Shown: piece by piece, positions 1,437 to 11,291 of the stretch | Position numbering within the stretch: the stretch's first letter is position 1 | Layout of the letters: the number at the start of each line of letters is the position of its first letter | Virus record (IMG/VR): IMGVR_UViG_3300031963_005539 | Location: 1 to 20,351 of that record | Direction: 5' to 3' (one strand) | From: a virus | Length of the DNA: 20,351 nt | Made by a program: the position numbers and the translations under genes | Notes under the pieces: generated by a model | What the model saw: the letters and a program-made list of their open reading frames with translations, nothing else | Told to the model about the DNA's origin: nothing | The model's database searches: none

Positions 1437-1631
1437 CTATTCTTCTTTTCGAAGAGGGATGGTAGCAAGCCAAATAACAGTAGCAATTACTGTTGCTACG
1501 CCCACTACCTGCTGGGCGCTACCCGTTAGGGTCAACCATGCTATAAAAAACCCTAGGAGGGTAAATATTTGGGCAATGCTTTCTTTAATTACCTCCCAAA
1601 TATAATTTAGGATTCCCTTAATTATTTTCAT
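1437..1631 (-). CDS. Small membrane protein with two helices, possible holin
   Basis: The 64-aa product has an amphipathic N-terminal part (about residues 1-18), a hydrophobic helix at about 20-36 (IFTLLGFFIAWLTL) and another at 41-58 (QVVGVATVIATVIWLATI), then the charged end RKEE. Size and topology fit small phage holins or antiholins. Its ATG overlaps the stop of the large exported protein as TAATG, and the Shine-Dalgarno AGGAGG lies in the last codons of that gene, so both are translated from one message. With the other membrane protein at 761-1204 it could form a holin/antiholin pair; this is inference. Confidence 0.62.
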   Translation of the reverse strand: MKIIKGILNYIWEVIKESIAQIFTLLGFFIAWLTLTGSAQQVVGVATVIATVIWLATIPLRKEE

Positions 1632-3655
1632 TATATCCTCCTTGTCATGGCTGCTGCCACAATATTGCTTGCAATAATTACTGGCACAATTACTTCCTGT
1701 GCCTTTTCTCTTTGGTCATCTGTCATATCTTTGCCCCACTCTGACGGGCTAAATACTTTTTCAAAATCTATATTTGTAAATGCTCCTATAGGATCTGATA
1801 ATAATTGTTCCGCCGCCAATTCTGTAGTCGCATCTGCTAATGTATATGGCATAGGAGCATCAGCATTTTCTTCCGCCCTATTAGAAAATTCTACCACTGC
1901 CGCCGCTAAAATAGGATTTTCTTTCATCGCTTCAGCAATCACTGCAATTTCCGCAGCCTTAATTCCTAATTCTTCTGCAACTTCCTGCTTTGCTTCTGCT
2001 GATAATTCCACTAAAACATTTGCCACAGCTGCAGCTTGCTCTGGAGTTAATTTAACAATTACATTATCTTTACTAGTTAAATTAGCTAGCGCACTCAAAT
2101 CATCTGTGATACTATTACCTGATGGTTCTTTTGAAGGTTCAGCAGGAGTTGGTTCTGGTTCAGGAGTTGGCTCTGGATTTATATCCGATGGCAGAGGTGA
2201 AGGCTCTGGTGAAGGCTCTGGAGTGGGCTCAGGATCAACAGTTGGTTCTGGCTTCGGCTCATCTGTGGTTTCAGGCGTTGGCTCAGGAGTGGGATCGACT
2301 GGTTCAGTTTGCTCAGGTGATGGTTCAGGAGAGGGGGTAGGCTGTGGAGATGGTTCTGGTTCTAGGGTCTCTTCTGGCGTTGGCTCTGGTGTGGGTTCTG
2401 GGCTATTGGATTGCTCAGGGGTAGGTTCTGGTTTAGGTTGATTCGCTGCAGCATTTGCAGCAGCTTGTGCAATTGCAATTGCAATTTCTCTAGCTAATTG
2501 TTCTTCATAATAATTCCAAGCATCATCAATAGCATTATTTAAATCTATAATTGATTGATTATAAGCATCTATAGTATTATTTTTTGCGGTTAAAGCATTA
2601 GATGTGTTTGTAATTGCAGTATTATGTGCAGCTGTTTTATTTGTTAAAGTTTGATTGTAAGTTGTTAAAGTTGAATTAGCAGAATTATATTGAGATAACG
2701 CTGTTTGATATTGAGAATATTTGGTATCACGATCTGCTTGCAAAGAGGCTCTATCGTCTATTTGTTGTTGTGTTAATGGAGATCCATAGGCAATCCACTC
2801 TGCTGGAATTCCGCTCCACCATTGATTTGTTCCAACTCCGACATGCATATTTCCTGGACCACCGCCGTTATACCACCAAGCTTGCAACTGTAATGTTTTA
2901 TCAGAAGATGTATCAAACCATTGAGTATATGGGCTCCAAGAAGTTCCCTGTTCTTGCCATTGTTCTGTAGCTAAAACTCCATCAACATAAAGTCTAAATC
3001 CATCATCAGTAGATCCAGCAAATTTTACTGCATCTATTTCGGCTGGTACTGTGATAGTTGCTTCAAATATACCAATTATATTTTGAGATAGACCACAAAT
3101 AGCCCCAGACCCAGCCCATATATCAAATGTAGGAATAGTTCCATGACACATTAATCCAGCTCCTTGAGCTAAATATGCGTAATTACCCATACGAGACAAT
3201 GGGTATATTCTAAAATAAACACCTGTACTTCCGCCATTTCCATATGTTGCGATATGTGCATTAAGTGCTATTTGTGCAGAATTGTAAGTGTTATACTTAT
3301 TATTTTTATCAGTTAGCTTTGTAGACACTATAGCAGTCTGGGTATCAACTGCGGTTTGAGCTATTTGTTTTTCAGATAAAGCTGTTTCTTCTGCTGCTAC
3401 CGCCGCATCATAAGAATCTGAAGCATCGTCTCTTGCGTCTTTTGCAGCTACTGCAGCATCATATTTATCTTCTGCTTCAGAAATTAAAAATTGAAATTCT
3501 TCTTTGTAATTTAAATCAGCGACACTTGCGTTTAATTCTTGTATTTCTTGAGCGGCTAAACCCAATGGATCATCACTATATGCAGGCGTTAAAAACAGCC
3601 AACCAAAGCCTAAAATGGCGGCTAATGATAATCTCCATAATTTAGTCCTAGTCAA
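1631..3655 (-). CDS. Large exported protein with PA14-like domain, coiled coils and Pro-rich linker
   Basis: This 674-aa protein has a clear Sec signal peptide (basic start, hydrophobic 9-23, likely cut after AYS at 27). Next come a helical alanine-rich coiled coil (about 35-135), a compact aromatic domain (about 145-290) with PA14-like features (FAGSTDDGFRLYVDG at 212-226, then a strand containing LQLQAWWYNGG), a second coiled coil (295-400), a proline-rich linker of PEPTPEPTPE type (407-512) and a helical C-terminal part ending in a hydrophobic run (655-669) and TRRI. PA14 domains commonly bind carbohydrate. It may be a surface-exposed adhesin or receptor-modifying protein in the host envelope, or a virion fibre. 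The start is TTG with AAGGAG eight bases upstream; the first internal Met is residue 156, so TTG is required. No LPXTG motif is visible. Confidence 0.75.
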   Translation of the reverse strand: MTRTKLWRLSLAAILGFGWLFLTPAYSDDPLGLAAQEIQELNASVADLNYKEEFQFLISEAEDKYDAAVAAKDARDDASDSYDAAVAAEETALSEKQIAQTAVDTQTAIVSTKLTDKNNKYNTYNSAQIALNAHIATYGNGGSTGVYFRIYPLSRMGNYAYLAQGAGLMCHGTIPTFDIWAGSGAICGLSQNIIGIFEATITVPAEIDAVKFAGSTDDGFRLYVDGVLATEQWQEQGTSWSPYTQWFDTSSDKTLQLQAWWYNGGGPGNMHVGVGTNQWWSGIPAEWIAYGSPLTQQQIDDRASLQADRDTKYSQYQTALSQYNSANSTLTTYNQTLTNKTAAHNTAITNTSNALTAKNNTIDAYNQSIIDLNNAIDDAWNYYEEQLAREIAIAIAQAAANAAANQPKPEPTPEQSNSPEPTPEPTPEETLEPEPSPQPTPSPEPSPEQTEPVDPTPEPTPETTDEPKPEPTVDPEPTPEPSPEPSPLPSDINPEPTPEPEPTPAEPSKEPSGNSITDDLSALANLTSKDNVIVKLTPEQAAAVANVLVELSAEAKQEVAEELGIKAAEIAVIAEAMKENPILAAAVVEFSNRAEENADAPMPYTLADATTELAAEQLLSDPIGAFTNIDFEKVFSPSEWGKDMTDDQREKAQEVIVPVIIASNIVAAAMTRRI
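2120..2437 (-). repeat. Proline-rich PEPT/PEPS repeat-encoding tract
   Basis: About 106 codons (residues 407-512 of the exported protein) encode degenerate Pro-Glu-Pro-Thr/Ser units. The DNA has matching short repeats of GGTTCTGG/GGCTCAGG type on the plus strand. Such linkers are extended and cross cell-wall space in bacterial surface proteins. The tract also creates a long glycine-serine frame on the plus strand that is not a gene. Confidence 0.85.
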
Positions 3656-3961: not shown

Positions 3962-3991
3962 ATTATACTATTTCTTCTTCTTACGTTTCAA
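3962..3991 (-). promoter_or_regulatory. Promoter for the FmdB-like gene
   Basis: On the minus strand TTGAAA (3991-3986) and TATAAT (3967-3962) are separated by 18 bases, the best two-box sigma70-type promoter in the window. It overlaps the last codons and stop of hsp20. Confidence 0.6.
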
Positions 3992-4477
3992 GAGGCCTTC
4001 TTTTTCTGCCTGCTCAAGCATTTCATCCTGCTCTGCGCCAGAAATTGCGGCTAATTCATCACCATCAGTAATTGAAAATACTTTTGGTTTTGCTTCCTCT
4101 GGAACCCTTTTAATTAAATTAACTATTAGCATTCCTTGTAGCATTATAGCGCTATGTACTTCAACATATTCTGCAAGAGAAAATGTTCTTGTAAAATTGC
4201 GGCCTCCAATACCTCTGTGAATGTAGGTGCTACTGGTATCCGATTTGCTTTCACCAGTAATCGTTAAAACATTTTTTTCCTGCTTTACTGTGATGTCTTC
4301 TTTGCTGAATCCTGCCAAAGCAATTTCAACAGCATAGGAGTCTTCTCCAATTTGTTTTAGATTGTATGGCGGGTAATTAGTAGATGCACCCATAAGTTTT
4401 TCAAGATCTTTAAAGTGGCGATCCCAGCCAATAAAAAATGGATCTTTAAAAAGATCCAATGATAGGTTTGTAACCAT
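3968..4477 (-). CDS. Hsp20/alpha-crystallin small heat-shock chaperone
   Basis: The 169-aa product has the IbpA-type layout: N-terminal arm with FIGWDRHFKDLEKL, an alpha-crystallin domain from about residue 36 (YPPYNLKQIGEDSYAVEIALAGF) to 135, and the conserved end LIKRVPEEAKPKVFSI at 121-136, then a helical tail ending in lysines. Such proteins hold unfolding clients in the cytoplasm without ATP. Small heat-shock proteins are known in T4-like cyanophages and may help virion protein folding. The ATG has a strong AAGGAGGA site. A promoter with a perfect inverted repeat lies just upstream. The polylysine C-terminal tail and long acidic extension are less usual. Confidence 0.93.
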   Translation of the reverse strand: MVTNLSLDLFKDPFFIGWDRHFKDLEKLMGASTNYPPYNLKQIGEDSYAVEIALAGFSKEDITVKQEKNVLTITGESKSDTSSTYIHRGIGGRNFTRTFSLAEYVEVHSAIMLQGMLIVNLIKRVPEEAKPKVFSITDGDELAAISGAEQDEMLEQAEKEGLLKRKKKK

Positions 4478-5155: not shown

Positions 5156-5407
5156 TTATTGTATTGTCCCGTCCTCATTTTTGTCAATAGTTGTTTCTAC
5201 CAACTGCTGGACATAGTCAGAGAAGTGTTTTCTGACGCTTCCTGGCGGTCTTGATCCAAGAGATTTCCACAGCCTCTTGTATTCAATTACATTTGCAAAT
5301 GTTGTAGGACACAGCATGTACCCAGCGTACTCTTTTAAAGTAGTTGGAAGCGGCACATGCTTTCCACAGCACTTACATTCTCTTGCTTTTTCTTGGTATA
5401 TGCTCAT
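5156..5407 (-). CDS. Small Cys-containing protein after the large terminase, 83 aa
   Basis: The 83-aa product has an N-terminal cysteine group (ECKCCGKHVPLP, Cys11, 13, 14) and Cys33 in YMLCPTTF, giving a probable single zinc site, then a basic helix (NVIEYKRLWKSLG) and a polar tail. Its ATG overlaps the terminase stop as ATGA and GGAA lies upstream. Position after the large terminase suggests a packaging or head-related accessory role, or a small DNA-binding protein. No family can be named. The tRNA gene follows after seven bases. Confidence 0.72.
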   Translation of the reverse strand: MSIYQEKARECKCCGKHVPLPTTLKEYAGYMLCPTTFANVIEYKRLWKSLGSRPPGSVRKHFSDYVQQLVETTIDKNEDGTIQ

Positions 5408-7194
5408 AGTATTTCCATTCCGTCTAGTACATCCGCCAATTTTGAAGGCATTTTGGGAGGCCTAATTACATTTAATCTAATATCTTCTTCCTGTCTATCA
5501 TTTCTACGGGCTATTGAGTCATATGTATGAACATCAATTTCTCTGTTTGCTTCAAACTTAGTTTTACTTATAGCATTATATATTGAGCCACAGACTGCGT
5601 CAGCTAAGTCTTTTGATCCTTTTCTTGGGTGATCAACCTTATCACGCATAATTTTCAGCTGCAACAACTCGTCTATAAGAAGTGGTATATGTGGGCCAGA
5701 AAGCCTGTCCTCTGCGACCACCATTGCCATATCATCATAATGTTTTTTAGCAACAGATAGGGTTTCTGTATTAATTCCATATTGTTTTAATTGTTGCATC
5801 ATATCATGTGAGTTCCATCGGTCAAATGTACATAATCTTATTTTAAATCCTTTTGTTCTTAGAGAAAGAATATAGTCTTTGACCTCAGTAAAATCTACTG
5901 ACTTATCTGCAGTAGGAGTCCAATATCTAACTGCATCTACTTCTACGATTGGCGCAGGCTGGGAGTATGTGTCGGTTACTTTTACATTTACCCACTTTTG
6001 AACGTGAGCCATAGATACGGCACAATGGTCATGCTTTTGTGCCAAGTCTACATGTATAAAGTATTCCTTGTCTGGGTCTGGTGCGAACCAATTTTCAAAT
6101 CTGCCAAATTGATCTACGGCTAATGCCATATTGTTAAAAGCTTTTTCTATTTTTTCTCTTGACTTAAAGAATGCATCAATCGCTTCTGGTGGCATGCAAG
6201 CAAAACGACCAAGAGCGTCTGGCATATTCTTGTAGAATTCTACTTTAAAATTTTCTATAGTCTTTGTAGGATTTATTTCCCACGTAGGTCTTTTCAAAGC
6301 ATAAACTTTAGGAATTGTATAAGACACAATGTGATCTTCTTCCCATTCAACAGTTATTTCATTTCCATCTGTTCCGTCTGGCAAGCTTTCATCCATCTTC
6401 AAAGTCTTAGTTCTGACTACAGTTTCTTTTTCAGCAATTACAGAATCATAAAATTTTTGAATTGGGTCATTCTTAAATCGTGGAAACGAAAGTAAAATTA
6501 CTTTACCATAGTCTGGGAAACGTGATACGACAGATCCACGATACATATCATAGATAGCGTCTGCTGTTTTTGCTTGGTCATGCCCAGTCGTATTCTCTGT
6601 AGCGAAACCTGAAATTTCATCTAGGATAACTGCTATTACGTTATACCCCTCCCAAGCTTCACGTTCCGAGTGGCCAGAATGAACTGTTATAGCTTTATTA
6701 AATTTCATTTCAGATGCCTTAGCCTCATACTTACCAATAAACCAAGGAGATCTATCTACTCTAGTTTTAAACCCTTTAAAGAAAACGTTGTTGGCCTGTT
6801 GAGCGTTAATAGCAATATTAAGAATATCTATAGAGTCTCCAGGAGGTTTTCCGTAATATGTTGCTGGATCTTTGAGGCAGAGCAATAGATATACCATATA
6901 AGATACTGCTATAGTTGAACAGTAGTCTTTTCCGCTACCCTTACCTAATTGTGCAATTACTTCATTGCAGGTTTGCTTAAACCTACGACGACCTTCGTCT
7001 TCCCCAAAAAGTTTAATAAGAGTAGACTCTTTATATATTTGAGAACTTTTTTCAATTAATGTGTATTGATATTCAGAAAGCGGTGGAAGGCCAAGATAAT
7101 CTGGACTAGTAACAAATGTCTTTAAATCGACTGGCCTCTCATCGAATTCCTCACCATCAAGGATATCAATTAGATCATTGAAATTAAGATCCAC
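5404..7194 (-). CDS. terL: Large terminase subunit (packaging ATPase and nuclease)
   Basis: This protein powers DNA packaging into the head and cuts the genome. Counting from the TTG at 7212: Walker A QLGKGSGKD at 88-96, Walker B VIAVILDEI at 192-200 (Asp198, Glu199), a motor-coupling region with SFPRFKND at 242-249, then an RNase H-like nuclease with HVDLA (Asp389), CTFDRWNS (Asp464) and DLADAV (Asp535, Asp538). About 600 residues is normal for tailed phages. I place the start at GTG 7194, which has GAGGA seven bases upstream; TTG 7212 adds six residues but has no ribosome site. It overlaps the small subunit by a few codons. Confidence 0.93.
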   Translation of the reverse strand: MDLNFNDLIDILDGEEFDERPVDLKTFVTSPDYLGLPPLSEYQYTLIEKSSQIYKESTLIKLFGEDEGRRRFKQTCNEVIAQLGKGSGKDYCSTIAVSYMVYLLLCLKDPATYYGKPPGDSIDILNIAINAQQANNVFFKGFKTRVDRSPWFIGKYEAKASEMKFNKAITVHSGHSEREAWEGYNVIAVILDEISGFATENTTGHDQAKTADAIYDMYRGSVVSRFPDYGKVILLSFPRFKNDPIQKFYDSVIAEKETVVRTKTLKMDESLPDGTDGNEITVEWEEDHIVSYTIPKVYALKRPTWEINPTKTIENFKVEFYKNMPDALGRFACMPPEAIDAFFKSREKIEKAFNNMALAVDQFGRFENWFAPDPDKEYFIHVDLAQKHDHCAVSMAHVQKWVNVKVTDTYSQPAPIVEVDAVRYWTPTADKSVDFTEVKDYILSLRTKGFKIRLCTFDRWNSHDMMQQLKQYGINTETLSVAKKHYDDMAMVVAEDRLSGPHIPLLIDELLQLKIMRDKVDHPRKGSKDLADAVCGSIYNAISKTKFEANREIDVHTYDSIARRNDRQEEDIRLNVIRPPKMPSKLADVLDGMEIL

Positions 7195-7723
7195 TAGCTT
7201 CCTCAGTCTCAATTACAACTGGCTCAACAACTCCTGTTATTTGAGATAAACGCTTGGCAACTTCCATCTTACACTTAGGACATGTTGCTGTAACTTCTTT
7301 TAGAATCTTAACTAGAACATCCTGTTTGCGTTCTGTTTCTGCTACCTGCGAAGCCAACTCTTGATTATCAAGTAAGCCAACCTCTTGTAGCATCCCAATT
7401 CTTTTACCTTCAATATCTGCAATTAGTTTTAATGCCGTTGCTTTTATGTTTAATTGTCCTGCTTGATCTGCATCCTCTACGGTCTTCCAGGCCTCTTTTA
7501 TTAACATGGCGTAATGTTGGTCTGCTCCAGATATGGCTTCCTTTGCCCTGTCACGAGCTCCAGAATCGCTTTTAACGACCTCTTTCCACTCGTCTATATA
7601 CCCTAAGACCTCTGCACGTTTAAAACCAGTTATAGAGGCGATTTGAGTTGGATTGTTACCTTTAAGTAGTTCTTCAACTACCTTGTTCATGCGATCAAAA
7701 TGATCAGCTAATTCAATGTCCAT
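7184..7723 (-). CDS. terS: Small terminase subunit (DNA recognition)
   Basis: The 179-aa product sits directly upstream of the large terminase and overlaps it. Residues about 12-48 form a helix-turn-helix (KVVEELLKGNNPTQIASITG, then a recognition helix), followed by a long helical segment suited to oligomerisation and a C-terminal part with a CPKC pair (148-151) that would contact the large subunit. This layout is typical of ring-forming small terminases. The assignment rests on position, size and HTH rather than on a strong motif. The ATG has no clear ribosome site; TATAAT lies eight bases upstream, so the message may be nearly leaderless. Confidence 0.75.
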   Translation of the reverse strand: MDIELADHFDRMNKVVEELLKGNNPTQIASITGFKRAEVLGYIDEWKEVVKSDSGARDRAKEAISGADQHYAMLIKEAWKTVEDADQAGQLNIKATALKLIADIEGKRIGMLQEVGLLDNQELASQVAETERKQDVLVKILKEVTATCPKCKMEVAKRLSQITGVVEPVVIETEEASGS

Positions 7724-7756: not shown

Positions 7757-8086
7757 TCAGTCTTGAATTTGCTTGGCTATTTTTAATAAAACTAAATATC
7801 CAATTAAATCGTCAATATCATTATCTCCTGGATAATCTGTGCCCTTCATAAGTCTATTTAATTTGTCATCAATTCTGACATGGAGTTGTTCTCTTGGTCC
7901 CGCCTTTGAAAATATACGAACAGGGTCAAGGGCTGAATTGCCGTAGGCAATATTCTTTTTGACCAGCATATGTGCAATTTCATGGCAGGTATTCCAAATT
8001 TCTTTTCCTGCTTCTGTACCTACAGTAAGTAAATATAAATCCTGGCACTCAAATTGTTTTGAGTCTGGAAATACGGGCTCTAACAT
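7757..8086 (-). CDS. MazG-like / DUF1599-type all-alpha protein
   Basis: The 109-aa protein is helical with three conserved-looking blocks: KNIAYGNSALDPVRIFSKA (44-62), EQLHVRIDDKLNRL (66-79) and DIDDLIGYLVLLKIA (90-104). These match my memory of small phage proteins of the DUF1599 (nucleotide modification associated domain 1) type, related to MazG-like nucleotide hydrolases; the acid pairs RIDDK and DIDDL would hold metal. A role in nucleotide metabolism or modification is therefore plausible but not proven. AGGAG precedes the ATG. It lies between the sugar cassette and the terminase genes. Confidence 0.6.
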   Translation of the reverse strand: MLEPVFPDSKQFECQDLYLLTVGTEAGKEIWNTCHEIAHMLVKKNIAYGNSALDPVRIFSKAGPREQLHVRIDDKLNRLMKGTDYPGDNDIDDLIGYLVLLKIAKQIQD

Positions 8087-8094
8087 ATCCGCTC

Positions 8095-9501
8095 CTATTG
8101 AACTTGAGACTGATATTTATCATCAATCTCTATCCCGCCAGCGATTTCTGGCTGGAATGTGTAAACATTAAATATACCTTTTGAACCATGTCTAAATATG
8201 AACCAGTCTGTCGGGTAGTCCATTCCTGTTTCTTTTACATACTTCAAAAGCTTTTTTGCTCCAGAATTTGAAACTACGTAGCATAAAGTAGACCAGTCTT
8301 GATATCCTTTTGCTATACAAGGATTTATTATATCATTATGATTAAATCTTGGGAACTGGTTGGGGTGCACGAAGATACTAAATATATCATAATCTTTGGG
8401 GCAAAAATCTAAAAACAAATTATATTTATCTATAAAAGAATTATTTATTTTCGCATCGTCTTCAAAAACTAGCAGGCTGTCAAGATTATTTTCATCTACA
8501 TATTTCCAAGCAAGGTAATGGCTAGCAAAATTTCCTAGTTCACCAATTTTAAAAGAGTCCCAGCCTAATTTAAAATCTTTATTTTCATTAAAAAAGCTTT
8601 CTTTTTCTATTTCATTTCTAGCATTTAATGATTTTATATTATGTTTATTTCCATTTAAATAAGAGTCTATATCTTTTCTATTAGATTTTCTTTCATCATT
8701 TATATATATAATATGGTAATCAATACTTATTTTATTTTTAGTCAAGTCAAAATCTTTTCCATAAAATGAATTTAAATCCATACAGTTCTTGTCATGAGAC
8801 ATTCTTGCATATATTTTATTTACAGTCTGACTATCTTTTTCTGAAAACTCTTTAAACGTTTCAAATATTTTTATGGTTTCGTTTGTAGCTTTATCATGAC
8901 TATAAGACGATCCGACGGGGTGAGTTATTAAATTTTTGCTATCTCTTAAAATTATTTTATCCTTTGATATGGCTAAAGAAGAATGTACAATATCAATAGC
9001 CCATCCAGATACCATGCCCTCCCAGCCATGCTTTTGCTCAAAATAGTTAAAGAAGTCTAACATGTCCTTTACGATATCTTTGTGCATAAAAAACATAATC
9101 CCATTTGTATTTGTGGCAATAGAGAGATTGTTGTCCAGGATTGAAACTTTTAAATTTGTAGAGTTAAATCCCCATGCATCATTTGTAAAATGTGGAGCGT
9201 ACAGACCTATATTTTCGTAAATAGAAAGCACATGTAGCGATCTTTTAATAACACTATTCCAATCAGAATAACTTATATCTCCGCACATAAATAACATATA
9301 GTCATTATTAAAATCAAAATCTTTTAATGCATAGTAGAACTGCCTATAGTATCTTATGTCTCCGAGATTATTCCATCCTTCTCTTGGTGTACCAGAATTA
9401 ATAATTTGTAAATTAAGTCCAGAAGCTTTAAACTGAGAATCAATATCTAATACATTATCATAGTAATCGTCCCAACATACTAGATACCCTTGTACTTTCA
9501 T
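8095..9501 (-). CDS. Two-domain glycosyltransferase (GT-A N-terminus, GT25-like C-terminus)
   Basis: The 468-aa protein seems to hold two transferase domains. Residues 1-235 look like a GT-A fold (MKVQGYLVCWDD strand, MLFMCGDISYSDW at 69-81, then GWAIDIVHSSLA and an ITHPVGSSY block). Residues about 258-460 match glycosyltransferase family 25: YHIIYINDERKSNR start, GELGNFASHYLAW (320-332), the DXD-like VFEDDA (345-350) and TDWFIFRHG near the end. It may add two sugars in sequence to a glycan, virion protein or DNA. The ATG overlaps the cytidylyltransferase stop (ATGA). The middle of the gene is notably AT-rich, even for this genome, which hints at separate origin. Confidence 0.8.
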   Translation of the reverse strand: MKVQGYLVCWDDYYDNVLDIDSQFKASGLNLQIINSGTPREGWNNLGDIRYYRQFYYALKDFDFNNDYMLFMCGDISYSDWNSVIKRSLHVLSIYENIGLYAPHFTNDAWGFNSTNLKVSILDNNLSIATNTNGIMFFMHKDIVKDMLDFFNYFEQKHGWEGMVSGWAIDIVHSSLAISKDKIILRDSKNLITHPVGSSYSHDKATNETIKIFETFKEFSEKDSQTVNKIYARMSHDKNCMDLNSFYGKDFDLTKNKISIDYHIIYINDERKSNRKDIDSYLNGNKHNIKSLNARNEIEKESFFNENKDFKLGWDSFKIGELGNFASHYLAWKYVDENNLDSLLVFEDDAKINNSFIDKYNLFLDFCPKDYDIFSIFVHPNQFPRFNHNDIINPCIAKGYQDWSTLCYVVSNSGAKKLLKYVKETGMDYPTDWFIFRHGSKGIFNVYTFQPEIAGGIEIDDKYQSQVQ

Positions 9502-9923
9502 TGCATTCTTCCTCTAATTTTTGTAGACGATATAGTTTGAGTATAAGGCACATAAACAAGACCTATTCCTCTTTCATCTAACCATTCCTGAGTAAAAGAC
9601 ATTTGTGAATAATAATCTTTTTTGGCCCAGTCAGATCCAACGACTATATAATTAGGTCCTACCATTTCTATTGAAATCCTTGAGTCTTGTCCGCCGACAT
9701 TCATGACAACTTCATCTACATATTTGCAGGCTAGCAAAACATCTAGCCTTTCTTGTTCGCTGCATATGGGCTTTTTATTTTTGAATTGAAATATGAAATC
9801 ATCTGTATTAAGAGCGACTACCACTTTACCATCGACGCCAGCAACTTCTCTACATCTCTTTAAAAGATTAACGTGCCCTGAATGAAACAAGTCAAATGTA
9901 CCACCAGTATAGACTATATTCAT
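9498..9923 (-). CDS. Cytidylyltransferase-family nucleotidyltransferase (TagD/RfaE-like)
   Basis: The 141-aa protein has the family's hallmark motifs: GGTFDLFHSGH at 7-17 (HxGH, His14 and His17), an ALNTDDF strand, and ISSTKIR at 131-137. Members join CTP or ATP to a phosphorylated small molecule (glycerol-3-phosphate, heptose-phosphate, ethanolamine-phosphate) to give an activated donor; the exact substrate cannot be told here. The length is close to TagD. It is coupled by ATGA overlaps to the FkbM methyltransferase upstream and the glycosyltransferase downstream, so it most likely makes a precursor for the latter. Confidence 0.87.
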   Translation of the reverse strand: MNIVYTGGTFDLFHSGHVNLLKRCREVAGVDGKVVVALNTDDFIFQFKNKKPICSEQERLDVLLACKYVDEVVMNVGGQDSRISIEMVGPNYIVVGSDWAKKDYYSQMSFTQEWLDERGIGLVYVPYTQTISSTKIRGRMQ

Positions 9924-10591
9924 TGAGATATCCTATCATATAAGTCTTTTGAAACAAACCAGCTGTCCCATTTTGATTCCTCTGGCATTATCATTACATA
10001 TCCTTTACTTGTTAAAAGATCTGCAATCAAGTCTTTTGTATATGTATTATTATGCTCAACTGTAATTAGATTAAATTTGGTTGAGAAGTCATACGAATTT
10101 AGTATATGGTATTCGGATCCCTCTGTATCTATTGATAAATAGTCTACTGTTTCTGGGCACGAATGCTTCTCAAGCAAATCTTTTAAAGATATGGTGTCTA
10201 CCATATAGTTGTTTCCATTGTGCTTTCTTGTCTCAGTATGAACATCATTATATGCATATTCTGCTATCCCAGAAAGACCTTCAAAATTTTCTACTTCTAC
10301 AAATTCTATTTGATCCCCGCTTTTATCTGACACACACAAGGTGTCTATCTTTGCCGTTCTTTTTGAAGGAAGTATTTTGTTATAATGTTTGGAGGGCTCT
10401 ACTAATAAGCCTTGCCACCCATAATAAGTTTCAAGTAGGAATGTATTTGAAAGATATACTCCATCACACGCTCCAAACTCTACAAAATATCCTGGCTTGT
10501 TACCAAAACAAAACAATGCCAATAGGTCTTGATTTATTTGTGAATAGCTTTCTTTTGTAGCACAGAAATATCTAAAATTATTTAGAATCAT
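9920..10591 (-). CDS. FkbM-family SAM-dependent methyltransferase
   Basis: The 223-aa product follows the FkbM pattern: SYSQINQDLLALF at 15-27, the SAM-binding strand-turn YFVEFGACDG (35-44) with LSNTFLLE, GWQGLLVEPS (58-67), and VDYLSIDTEGSE (149-160). These enzymes usually O-methylate sugars or polyketides. Together with the next two genes it suggests a methylated sugar or glycan product. The ATG overlaps the stop of the small HTH gene (ATGA). The protein is cytosolic with no signal or membrane segment. Confidence 0.88.
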   Translation of the reverse strand: MILNNFRYFCATKESYSQINQDLLALFCFGNKPGYFVEFGACDGVYLSNTFLLETYYGWQGLLVEPSKHYNKILPSKRTAKIDTLCVSDKSGDQIEFVEVENFEGLSGIAEYAYNDVHTETRKHNGNNYMVDTISLKDLLEKHSCPETVDYLSIDTEGSEYHILNSYDFSTKFNLITVEHNNTYTKDLIADLLTSKGYVMIMPEESKWDSWFVSKDLYDRISQ

Positions 10592-10728
10592 TTTATAAGT
10601 CCATTATCTTTTAGGGCACGATAAATTGTCATGGTAGTAACGTTACATTCTTTGGCAATTTCTTCCATAGTTTTTTTCTGCACAACATACCGTCTGTAAA
10701 GCCAGTCTTTACTTTTATATAACTTCAT
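10588..10728 (-). CDS. Mini helix-turn-helix protein, 46 aa
   Basis: A 46-residue frame linked by ATGA overlaps to RuvC upstream and FkbM downstream, with GGAG just before the ATG. The product is almost only a helix-turn-helix: basic start MKLYKSKDWLYRRY, then TMEEIAKECNVTTMTIYRAL at 20-39, where EIA and the recognition helix TTMTIYRALK are typical. It should bind DNA, probably as a dimer, and might regulate the sugar or recombination genes. Similar HTH segments occur at the ends of phage homing endonucleases, so a remnant is possible, but no nuclease sequence is seen. Confidence 0.8.
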   Translation of the reverse strand: MKLYKSKDWLYRRYVVQKKTMEEIAKECNVTTMTIYRALKDNGLIK

Positions 10729-11291
10729 CGCTCCGTCAATACTGTATTGGAATAGTGTGCAATGCCGAATGCATCTGCCACATCAAAATCATCTAACTGC
10801 AAATTATATTTATTATTAAAGTAATCTACAGTCCTTTGCTTTCTGATCTCCCGCATTTTTGCTTTATACCAAGAGTCAGCATGTCCTGGATTTTCAAATC
10901 TAAGTTTATCTTTCTCCATTTTTGTTGGGTTCTTATTTCCAATATAAGCCTGCCAAGATGTAGGAGAAATAGTAATAACACTAGCCCCACTAGACATAAG
11001 CTCAGCAATGACGACACCGTATACATAAGACAATTTTATCACGGCATCTGGGGATTTGACAAACACCGCACCTTCTACAACAATATAGTCAGACTTTAAT
11101 TCGTCTAGCATGGCATGCATTTTAACTTTAGCATCATGTATTTTCTCATATATGTCTGATCCAGAAAATTCTACCTTGCCCCATTTAATTGGTTTATCAT
11201 TTTCCATAAGGCAAAAGGCAACCGAATTAGTGGAGGCATCTATACCTAAAACCCTATTGGCTTTAGTCTTAATTAATTCACCCAATCTCAT
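10725..11291 (-). CDS. RuvC-like Holliday junction resolvase
   Basis: The 188-aa protein has an RNase H-like fold with the RuvC acidic set: Asp18 in VLGIDASTNSVAF, Glu73 in YIVVEGAVF, and Asp170/Asp173 in FDVADAFGIAHY. It should cut four-way junctions made by the RecA-like protein and clear branched DNA before packaging. An insert at about 110-150 (SPTSWQAYIGNKNPTKMEK) is longer than in E. coli RuvC and is typical of phage and fungal-like versions. AAGGA precedes the ATG, which overlaps the upstream zinc-finger gene by 14 bases. No RuvA or RuvB is present. Confidence 0.85.
   Translation of the reverse strand: MRLGELIKTKANRVLGIDASTNSVAFCLMENDKPIKWGKVEFSGSDIYEKIHDAKVKMHAMLDELKSDYIVVEGAVFVKSPDAVIKLSYVYGVVIAELMSSGASVITISPTSWQAYIGNKNPTKMEKDKLRFENPGHADSWYKAKMREIRKQRTVDYFNNKYNLQLDDFDVADAFGIAHYSNTVLTER

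Follow-up and report, generated by a model that had tools for sequence, protein, structure and literature searches.

The occurrence of sugar-modifying genes between the recombination and packaging genes of a phage raises two questions: what the encoded enzymes make together, and to what they attach it. We consider both for a locus of a lake phage, in a 20,351-base IMG/VR virus record, the whole of which is called the window here. The explanation that we judge on balance to be the probable one is that the locus is a glycan-assembly cassette, swapped as a unit among related phages and most likely acting on a virion protein. The original prediction, made from the letters alone, had named an FkbM methyltransferase (9920-10591), a cytidylyltransferase (9498-9923) and a double glycosyltransferase (8095-9501); all three genes are confirmed there on the minus strand, with RuvC to one side and the terminase genes to the other. 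The features of the locus are as follows.

5404..7212, minus strand: large terminase (phrog_2, 1.8e-15)
7757..8086, minus strand: conserved gene without assigned function, downstream flank of the slot (phrog_1485, 1.5e-12)
8095..9501, minus strand: double glycosyltransferase, 468 aa
8095..8730, minus strand: GTc, its C-terminal GT25 domain, residues 258-468 (PF01755, 2e-12)
8574..8874, minus strand: AT-richest stretch, 20.3% GC over 300 nt (composition)
8828..9501, minus strand: GTn, its N-terminal GT-A-like domain, residues 1-225 (AlphaFold, Foldseek and alignment)
9498..9923, minus strand: NT, HxGH-type nucleotidyl/cytidylyltransferase, 141 aa, putative donor activation (PF01467)
9920..10591, minus strand: SAM-dependent methyltransferase of the FkbM family, 223 aa, putatively O-methylating a sugar (PF05050, TIGR01444)
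10588..10728, minus strand: helix-turn-helix (HTH) protein, 46 aa, first gene of the run (open reading frame; ATGA overlaps with RuvC and FkbM)
10725..11291, minus strand: RuvC-like resolvase, upstream flank of the slot (phrog_159, 1.3e-23)

Read along the minus strand, the order is RuvC, HTH, FkbM, NT, double glycosyltransferase, the 7757..8086 gene, a phrog_9507 gene and the large terminase. The HTH gene had been overlooked; it joins FkbM by an ATGA overlap and overlaps RuvC by 4 nt, and RuvC, HTH, FkbM, NT and the glycosyltransferase gene are all chained in this way. The ATGA overlaps noted between the three sugar genes are real, but their reading as a lock is less secure: 4-nt overlaps join 7 of the window's 30 pairs of adjacent genes and, being frequent across this phage, are weak evidence for a set-apart cassette.

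The window phage groups with WhiB-bearing actinophages related to the Streptomyces Stanwilliamsviridae. Its terminase is 64% identical to gp90 of Kenrey, a Streptomyces phage of that family, and the order DnaE, MazG, RecA, Cas4, RuvC, HTH, cassette, terminase is common to both. Of 19 related records, 14 score above cut-off for WhiB, and of 14 control genomes only an actinobacterium does; whiB served as an actinophage marker in a study of freshwater actinophages (PMC10202952). The low G+C content and metagenomic origin of the IMG/VR record suggest that the hosts are low-GC freshwater Actinobacteria, such as Nanopelagicales. Anti-phage defence models gave no match, and a tRNA was the sole structured RNA of the window.

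Predicted enzymes of the cassette

The FkbM protein matches PF05050 (2.5e-18; 67.2 bits against a cut-off of 22.7) and TIGR01444 (42.9 bits against 37.7), and its putative SAM site, FVEFGACDG and SIDTEGSE, is largely kept in 12 relatives; sequence profiles found no credible relative of it in the PDB. NT belongs to the superfamily of PF01467 (2e-19; 70.5 bits against a cut-off of 21), and its motifs HSGH and ISSTKI fit the HxGH and ISSTxI signature. Profile matches to ethanolamine-phosphate cytidylyltransferase (3.7e-26), TagD (1coz, 1.9e-22) and Fom1 (7.5e-14) place it, by sequence, apparently closest to enzymes that use CTP. The predicted cytidylyltransferase holds at superfamily level and no further, NT falling below the equivalog cut-offs of both TagD and HldE. 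As a glycerol-3-phosphate cytidylyltransferase of the TagD type (TIGR01518) it reaches 71.1 bits where at least 165.4 are required, and as the adenylyltransferase C-domain of HldE, acting on heptose-1-phosphate (TIGR02199), 71.6 bits where at least 181.5 are required, although phrog_7878 carries that name. The HxGH superfamily is what it has in common with TagD, ethanolamine-phosphate cytidylyltransferase and the HldE C-domain; the profile match to TagD is full-length, but the arginine of the TagD motif RTEGIST is a tyrosine in NT, as it is in Fom1.

The double glycosyltransferase appears to contain two transferase domains, as originally proposed, the C-terminal one recognised by Pfam and the N-terminal one by modelling and structure comparison. 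GTc matches the GT25 family PF01755 over residues 270-432 (47.9 bits against a cut-off of 24), and its acidic motif EDD (E347-D348-D349), of the kind that binds metal, is invariant in 33 sequences. GTc also matches gp38 of Coruscant (BLAST, 7e-13) and superimposes on the glycosyltransferase of TunaTartare with a TM score of 0.91; GT25 structures are among the best fold matches of the whole protein. GTn has no Pfam match, and sequence profiles yielded no credible PDB relative. The AlphaFold model of the double enzyme (pLDDT 91.5, built from a 33-sequence alignment; an earlier model from 11 sequences, at 67.6, was discarded) shows a second GT-A-like domain in the N-terminal half, and in Foldseek both halves align to the two-domain enzyme COLGALT1 (E 7e-16). 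Residues W43, D75, GW166-167, D170, D187 and H194 are invariant in an alignment of 19 GTn sequences, which suggests an active enzyme, and the fold lets us infer that GTn is a transferase in its own right. A homology between GTn and gp80 of the Streptomyces phages was considered and rejected: parts of their alignment look suggestive, but the hhalign probability is 1.6% (P 0.033).

The AT-rich middle that had been predicted for this gene is the GC-poorest 300 nt of the window (window mean 37.4, sd 4.0). It corresponds to codons ~210-309, that is, to the inter-domain linker and the start of the GT25 domain, and the low GC of the gene is found again in all relatives compared.

COLGALT1 (GLT25D1), the collagen hydroxylysine galactosyltransferase, resembles the double glycosyltransferase in having tandem GT-A domains with GT25 at the C-terminus and is the best PDB match over both. 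Sequence identity between the two is 14-15%, and the overall TM score of about 0.3-0.36 means that the domain arrangement is not matched. A collagen-like system, in which a hydroxylase would work with a COLGALT-like transferase on Gly-X-Y repeats, was also rejected. The two long relatives with a fused glycosyltransferase (G001 and G002) contain 7 and 9 matches to 2-oxoglutarate oxygenases; a collagen-like acceptor is unsupported because both of them are free of collagen repeats, and the Streptomyces phages lack 2-oxoglutarate oxygenases.

A constant slot with exchangeable sugar genes

Comparison of related loci shows that the slot between RuvC-HTH and the terminase is constant, while its sugar cargo varies. 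HTH is the upstream border in relatives that have this slot, including Kenrey (gp78), and the 7757..8086 gene is the downstream flank in nearly all freshwater relatives. The contents take the following forms.

Window type: after HTH, FkbM, NT and the double glycosyltransferase (GTn with GTc)
FkbM-less type: NT and the double glycosyltransferase (e.g. L045-L052, L057, L058, L070)
MobA-like type with FkbM: double glycosyltransferase, MobA-like nucleotidyltransferase, FkbM (L012-L019)
MobA-like type: double glycosyltransferase, MobA-like nucleotidyltransferase (L125-L127)
Triple-fusion type: HTH, NT, then GTn-GT25-FkbM in a single 702-aa frame (L134)
Epimerase type: GT25, NAD epimerase (L143, L145)
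Streptomyces type: GT25, gp80, NT
L066: gp80-like glycosyltransferase, GT17, NT, a further gene, epimerase, GT25, then a gene of the 7757..8086 type

The syntenic slot of Kenrey runs HTH, GT25 (gp79), a second glycosyltransferase (gp80) and NT (gp81), so that the counterpart of GTc is a separate gene in the Streptomyces phages. GTn can also stand alone beside NT (L061, L062, L064, L080), and a fusion of GTn, GT25 and FkbM occurs a second time in L133, as a single 691-aa frame after NT. In L012-L019 and L125-L127, which lack NT, a MobA-like nucleotidyltransferase (PF12804, 5.5e-8 in L012) adjoins the glycosyltransferase; it showed no relation to NT in profile comparison, and sequence profiles found no credible PDB relative of it. 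An NAD-dependent epimerase occupies the slot in L143-L145 and L066 (PF01370, 1.8e-62 and 1.3e-49). Separately, several relatives have a gene resembling IMP dehydrogenase/GMP reductase inserted beside the cassette.

From gene content and its variation we consider it very probable that the cassette serves to activate a sugar, add two in series and methylate the result. This agrees with the original proposal, in which a donor is activated, one or two sugars are transferred and the product is methylated, and for which the fusions, the replacement of NT, the epimerase in the slot and the co-distribution of FkbM with GTn argue well. Replacement of NT by an unrelated MobA-like enzyme suggests that nucleotidyl activation is a common need, and the GTn-GT25-FkbM fusions argue for methylation as a step in making that same product. 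The presence of FkbM requires five changes on a tree of RuvC and TerL but one on a tree of GTn, which, with the comparisons between cassettes, ties donor activation, serial transfer and methylation into one pathway; it may further mean that FkbM has the unit contributed by GTn as its substrate. Since GTn and NT occur without GT25, and GT25 and the epimerase without NT, GTn may use the product of NT, and GT25 a UDP-sugar. In the pathway we propose, NT would activate a phosphorylated sugar or polyol with a nucleoside triphosphate, probably CTP, and the double enzyme would transfer two units serially: GTn very likely the unit activated by NT, the GT25 domain a unit from a UDP-sugar. FkbM would then O-methylate the product, most likely on the unit added by GTn, and the acceptor would most likely be a virion protein, for example the major capsid protein.

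The variation among close relatives has a sharp edge. In L122, L046 and L051 the flanks are 82-88% identical in DNA to the window up to base 10588, which is the junction of HTH and FkbM; there the similarity ends, and FkbM is gone. Their backbone proteins remain close to those of the window (RuvC 90-93% identical, TerL 91-93% where covered), while their cassette proteins diverge (NT 74-77%, GT25 59-60%, GTn 41-42%). The clade defined by the backbone, a group picked after the trees had been seen, is rejected by the GTn data (p-AU 6.6e-47) and by the GT25 data (5.1e-5). These patterns suggest that close relatives swap the cassette as a unit, giving related phages different surface glycans, and that pressure leads a phage to alter its coat of sugars by such swaps. 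More tentatively, and at somewhat less than even chance, the slot might be a coat-type switching locus of actinophages, through which the particles of near-identical phages would come to differ in the methylated disaccharides they bear. Its borders would be fixed, with RuvC and HTH upstream and the 7757 gene and terminase downstream, and whole assembly lines (activation, two transfers and methylation, sometimes in a single polypeptide) would be exchanged between them. We liken this to the exchange of capsule loci in bacteria.

Candidate acceptors

Three targets had been proposed for the product: virion proteins, host envelope glycans and hypermodified DNA. The virion is favoured, on account of relatives of NT that lie by a capsid gene and the precedent of the mycobacteriophage Corndog; the case for DNA is weakened and that for the host envelope gained no positive support. 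Relatives of NT, 59-66% identical, occur in other freshwater phages, in loci that run prohead protease (PF04586), HK97 capsid (PF05065), GT-B, GT-A, NT and gp6 connector (PF05135). A recognisable capsid gene is reached, in that fixed order, on 15 of 24 contigs; most of the others start at the GT-B gene or no more than about 130 bases from it, and L083 has 461 bases before that gene without a capsid match. In the cultured Pontimonas phage phiPsal1, a capsid gene is followed by a glycosyltransferase, a SAM methyltransferase, a GT2 and a neck gene. The genes that lie between portal and protease in Corndog encode an O-methyltransferase, two glycosyltransferases and a GlcNAc transferase (PMC4351075), and Corndog gp38, like gp110 of Che8, is described as essential for capsid glycosylation in PMC12363180, which cites Freeman 2023 for Corndog gp38. 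The window cassette likewise has its putative glycosyltransferases and O-methyltransferase in a single gene block. In its own phage group the cassette itself lies in the RuvC/terminase slot, where its neighbours are genes for recombination and packaging and none for the capsid; the argument for a virion target is therefore drawn from other phages, through the relatives of a single component, NT. By analogy with them, we consider a virion protein the probable acceptor for the window.

It is unlikely, though the best of the alternatives, that the cassette modifies a glycan or glycolipid of the host envelope on its cytoplasmic face, masking the receptor and so excluding superinfection. Bacterial GT25 enzymes usually help to build envelope glycans, the name of PF01755 refers to lipopolysaccharide biosynthesis, and swapping of the cassette would also fit matching to varied host surfaces; such a role has been proposed for the glycosyltransferases of Ca. 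Planktophila phages (PMC10202952). Against it, membrane segments are absent from all cassette proteins (19-residue hydropathy at most 1.01), neither a flippase nor a ligase gene was recognised in the slot, and the relatives of NT sit within capsid operons. Serotype converters of the gtrABC kind come with flippase- or ligase-type partner genes, unlike the slot, and neither a membrane flippase nor a membrane-bound bactoprenol glucosyltransferase was found in the cassette or slot.

We regard glycosylation and methylation of hypermodified phage DNA as less likely still. Phage glycosyltransferases are known as DNA modifiers, and this would suit neighbours concerned with DNA metabolism (DnaE, RecA and RuvC), as would the DnaQ and dNMP kinase genes that come after NT in Kenrey. 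Yet none of 19 related records, two of which exceed 100 kb and carry the cassette, contains a thymidylate synthase/hydroxymethylase (PF00303) or a Tet_JBP match above cut-off, absences that are not proof because many of the records are partial, and a DNA cytosine methylase was found in Kenrey only. Nor would a DNA target lead one to expect that FkbM is restricted to one GTn clade and that NT relatives lie by a capsid gene.

An acceptor secreted by the phage, rather than one in the virion, seems very improbable. The candidate is the protein encoded at 1631-3655, which begins like a signal peptide and in one stretch of 100 aa has 84 that are P, T, S or E; a related P/T/S-rich gene lies within two genes after NT-GTn in L061 and L064. 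No more than 8 of 19 related records nevertheless have such a protein, some of them with weak partial matches, and the Streptomyces phages are without it; for this or any other secreted protein, moreover, the cytosolic enzymes would need to act before export. It is barely credible that the cassette is a moron, decayed or neutral, whose genes share no function: frames are split in L011 and L020 and the identical gene set is absent from sequenced phage isolates, but the putative catalytic motifs are invariant over 33 relatives and the same functions have been assembled repeatedly, including by unrelated replacements and fusions.

Significance and relation to known systems

If the acceptor is on the virion, the locus would supply pairs of phages, natural and nearly isogenic, whose main difference is the sugar of the coat. 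Few systems have been shown to have glycosylated phage particles, and the natural selective pressure behind them is still a question; the freshwater actinophages of this study, which are abundant, trade entire glycan cassettes at one fixed site, with a gene-exact border and the backbone unchanged. The triple fusion and the tracking of one transferase domain by FkbM also yield predictions about enzyme order. If the target were instead DNA or the host surface, the locus would give a handle on those systems.

The cassette is a real, conserved and modular set of genes, predicted to assemble a glycan and, by analogy, to work like the capsid-glycosylation sets of mycobacteriophages. Its likeness to gp35-gp38 of Corndog and other cluster O mycobacteriophages is one of gene content, several glycosyltransferases and an O-methyltransferase in an actinobacterial phage. 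The Corndog genes, however, lie inside a structural operon and no nucleotidyltransferase has been described among them, whereas the cassette has a putative donor-activating enzyme, fused glycosyltransferases and a methyltransferase of FkbM type in a RuvC/terminase slot. The Stanwilliamsviridae (Kenrey gp78-gp81, Coruscant) share the syntenic slot, the HTH border (in Kenrey), a GT25 homologue and an NT that is 53% identical, but their two glycosyltransferases are separate, the second (gp80, phrog_14945) lacks demonstrable homology to GTn, and there is no FkbM. The blocks of phiPsal1 and of the L085-type phages, in which capsid, two glycosyltransferases, NT and connector follow one another, are similarly compact and combine glycosyltransferases with NT or a SAM methyltransferase; they differ from the cassette in lying directly downstream of an HK97 capsid gene and in using GT-B and GT2-like enzymes rather than GTn-GT25.

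Slot border and neighbouring genes

The slot that holds the sugar cassette retains an HTH protein, conceivably with a part in regulation or exchange, on its upstream edge while the cargo varies. Two different cassette types carry an IMP dehydrogenase/GMP reductase-like insertion immediately adjoining the sugar genes.

Window 10588-10728 (minus strand): 46-aa HTH protein, upstream border of the slot
L011 6081-7100, L018 8735-9775, L038 7843-8862 (related phage contigs), plus others: IMP dehydrogenase/GMP reductase-like gene, insertion adjoining the cassette
Window 3968-4477 (minus strand): Hsp20-family small heat shock protein

The Hsp20-family protein is only 40-46% identical in several relatives, in some of which adjoining genes are more than 90% identical, and so it may be a further exchanged gene.

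Secreted-type protein and oxygenases

Window 1631-3655 (minus strand): 674-aa protein with a signal-peptide-like start and a P/T/S/E-rich stretch

These four residues make up 84% of one 100-aa stretch in this protein, which has neither a Pfam nor a PHROG match. Relatives occur in 8 of 19 records, and in L061 and L064 a similar gene lies near the nucleotidyltransferase and N-terminal glycosyltransferase domain (NT-GTn); this secreted-type protein is a possible glycan acceptor. Among long relatives, PF13640 (2-oxoglutarate/Fe(II) oxygenases) has seven matches in the L126 record (112 kb) and nine in that of L015 (104 kb), several in tandem (~81-86 and ~73-78 kb, respectively).

Split reading frames and Kenrey gp80

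L011 4749-6070, L020 5986-7294: double glycosyltransferase as two frames
L002 8290-10116: large terminase as two frames (465 + 132 aa)
L031 (Streptomyces phage Kenrey) 8346-9002: gp80, match to phrog_2675

The L020 glycosyltransferase breaks close to the AT-rich linker; since the large terminase of L020 is likewise split, assembly error is possible. Apart from its terminase split, L002 is identical to the window across the genes compared. Kenrey gp80, a separate second glycosyltransferase in the syntenic slot, has a further match in phrog_2675, a family of 599 positions that bears the annotation 'DNA methyltransferase'; the match covers its N-terminal third. This hints that the family may comprise glycosyltransferase-methyltransferase fusions under a misleading name.
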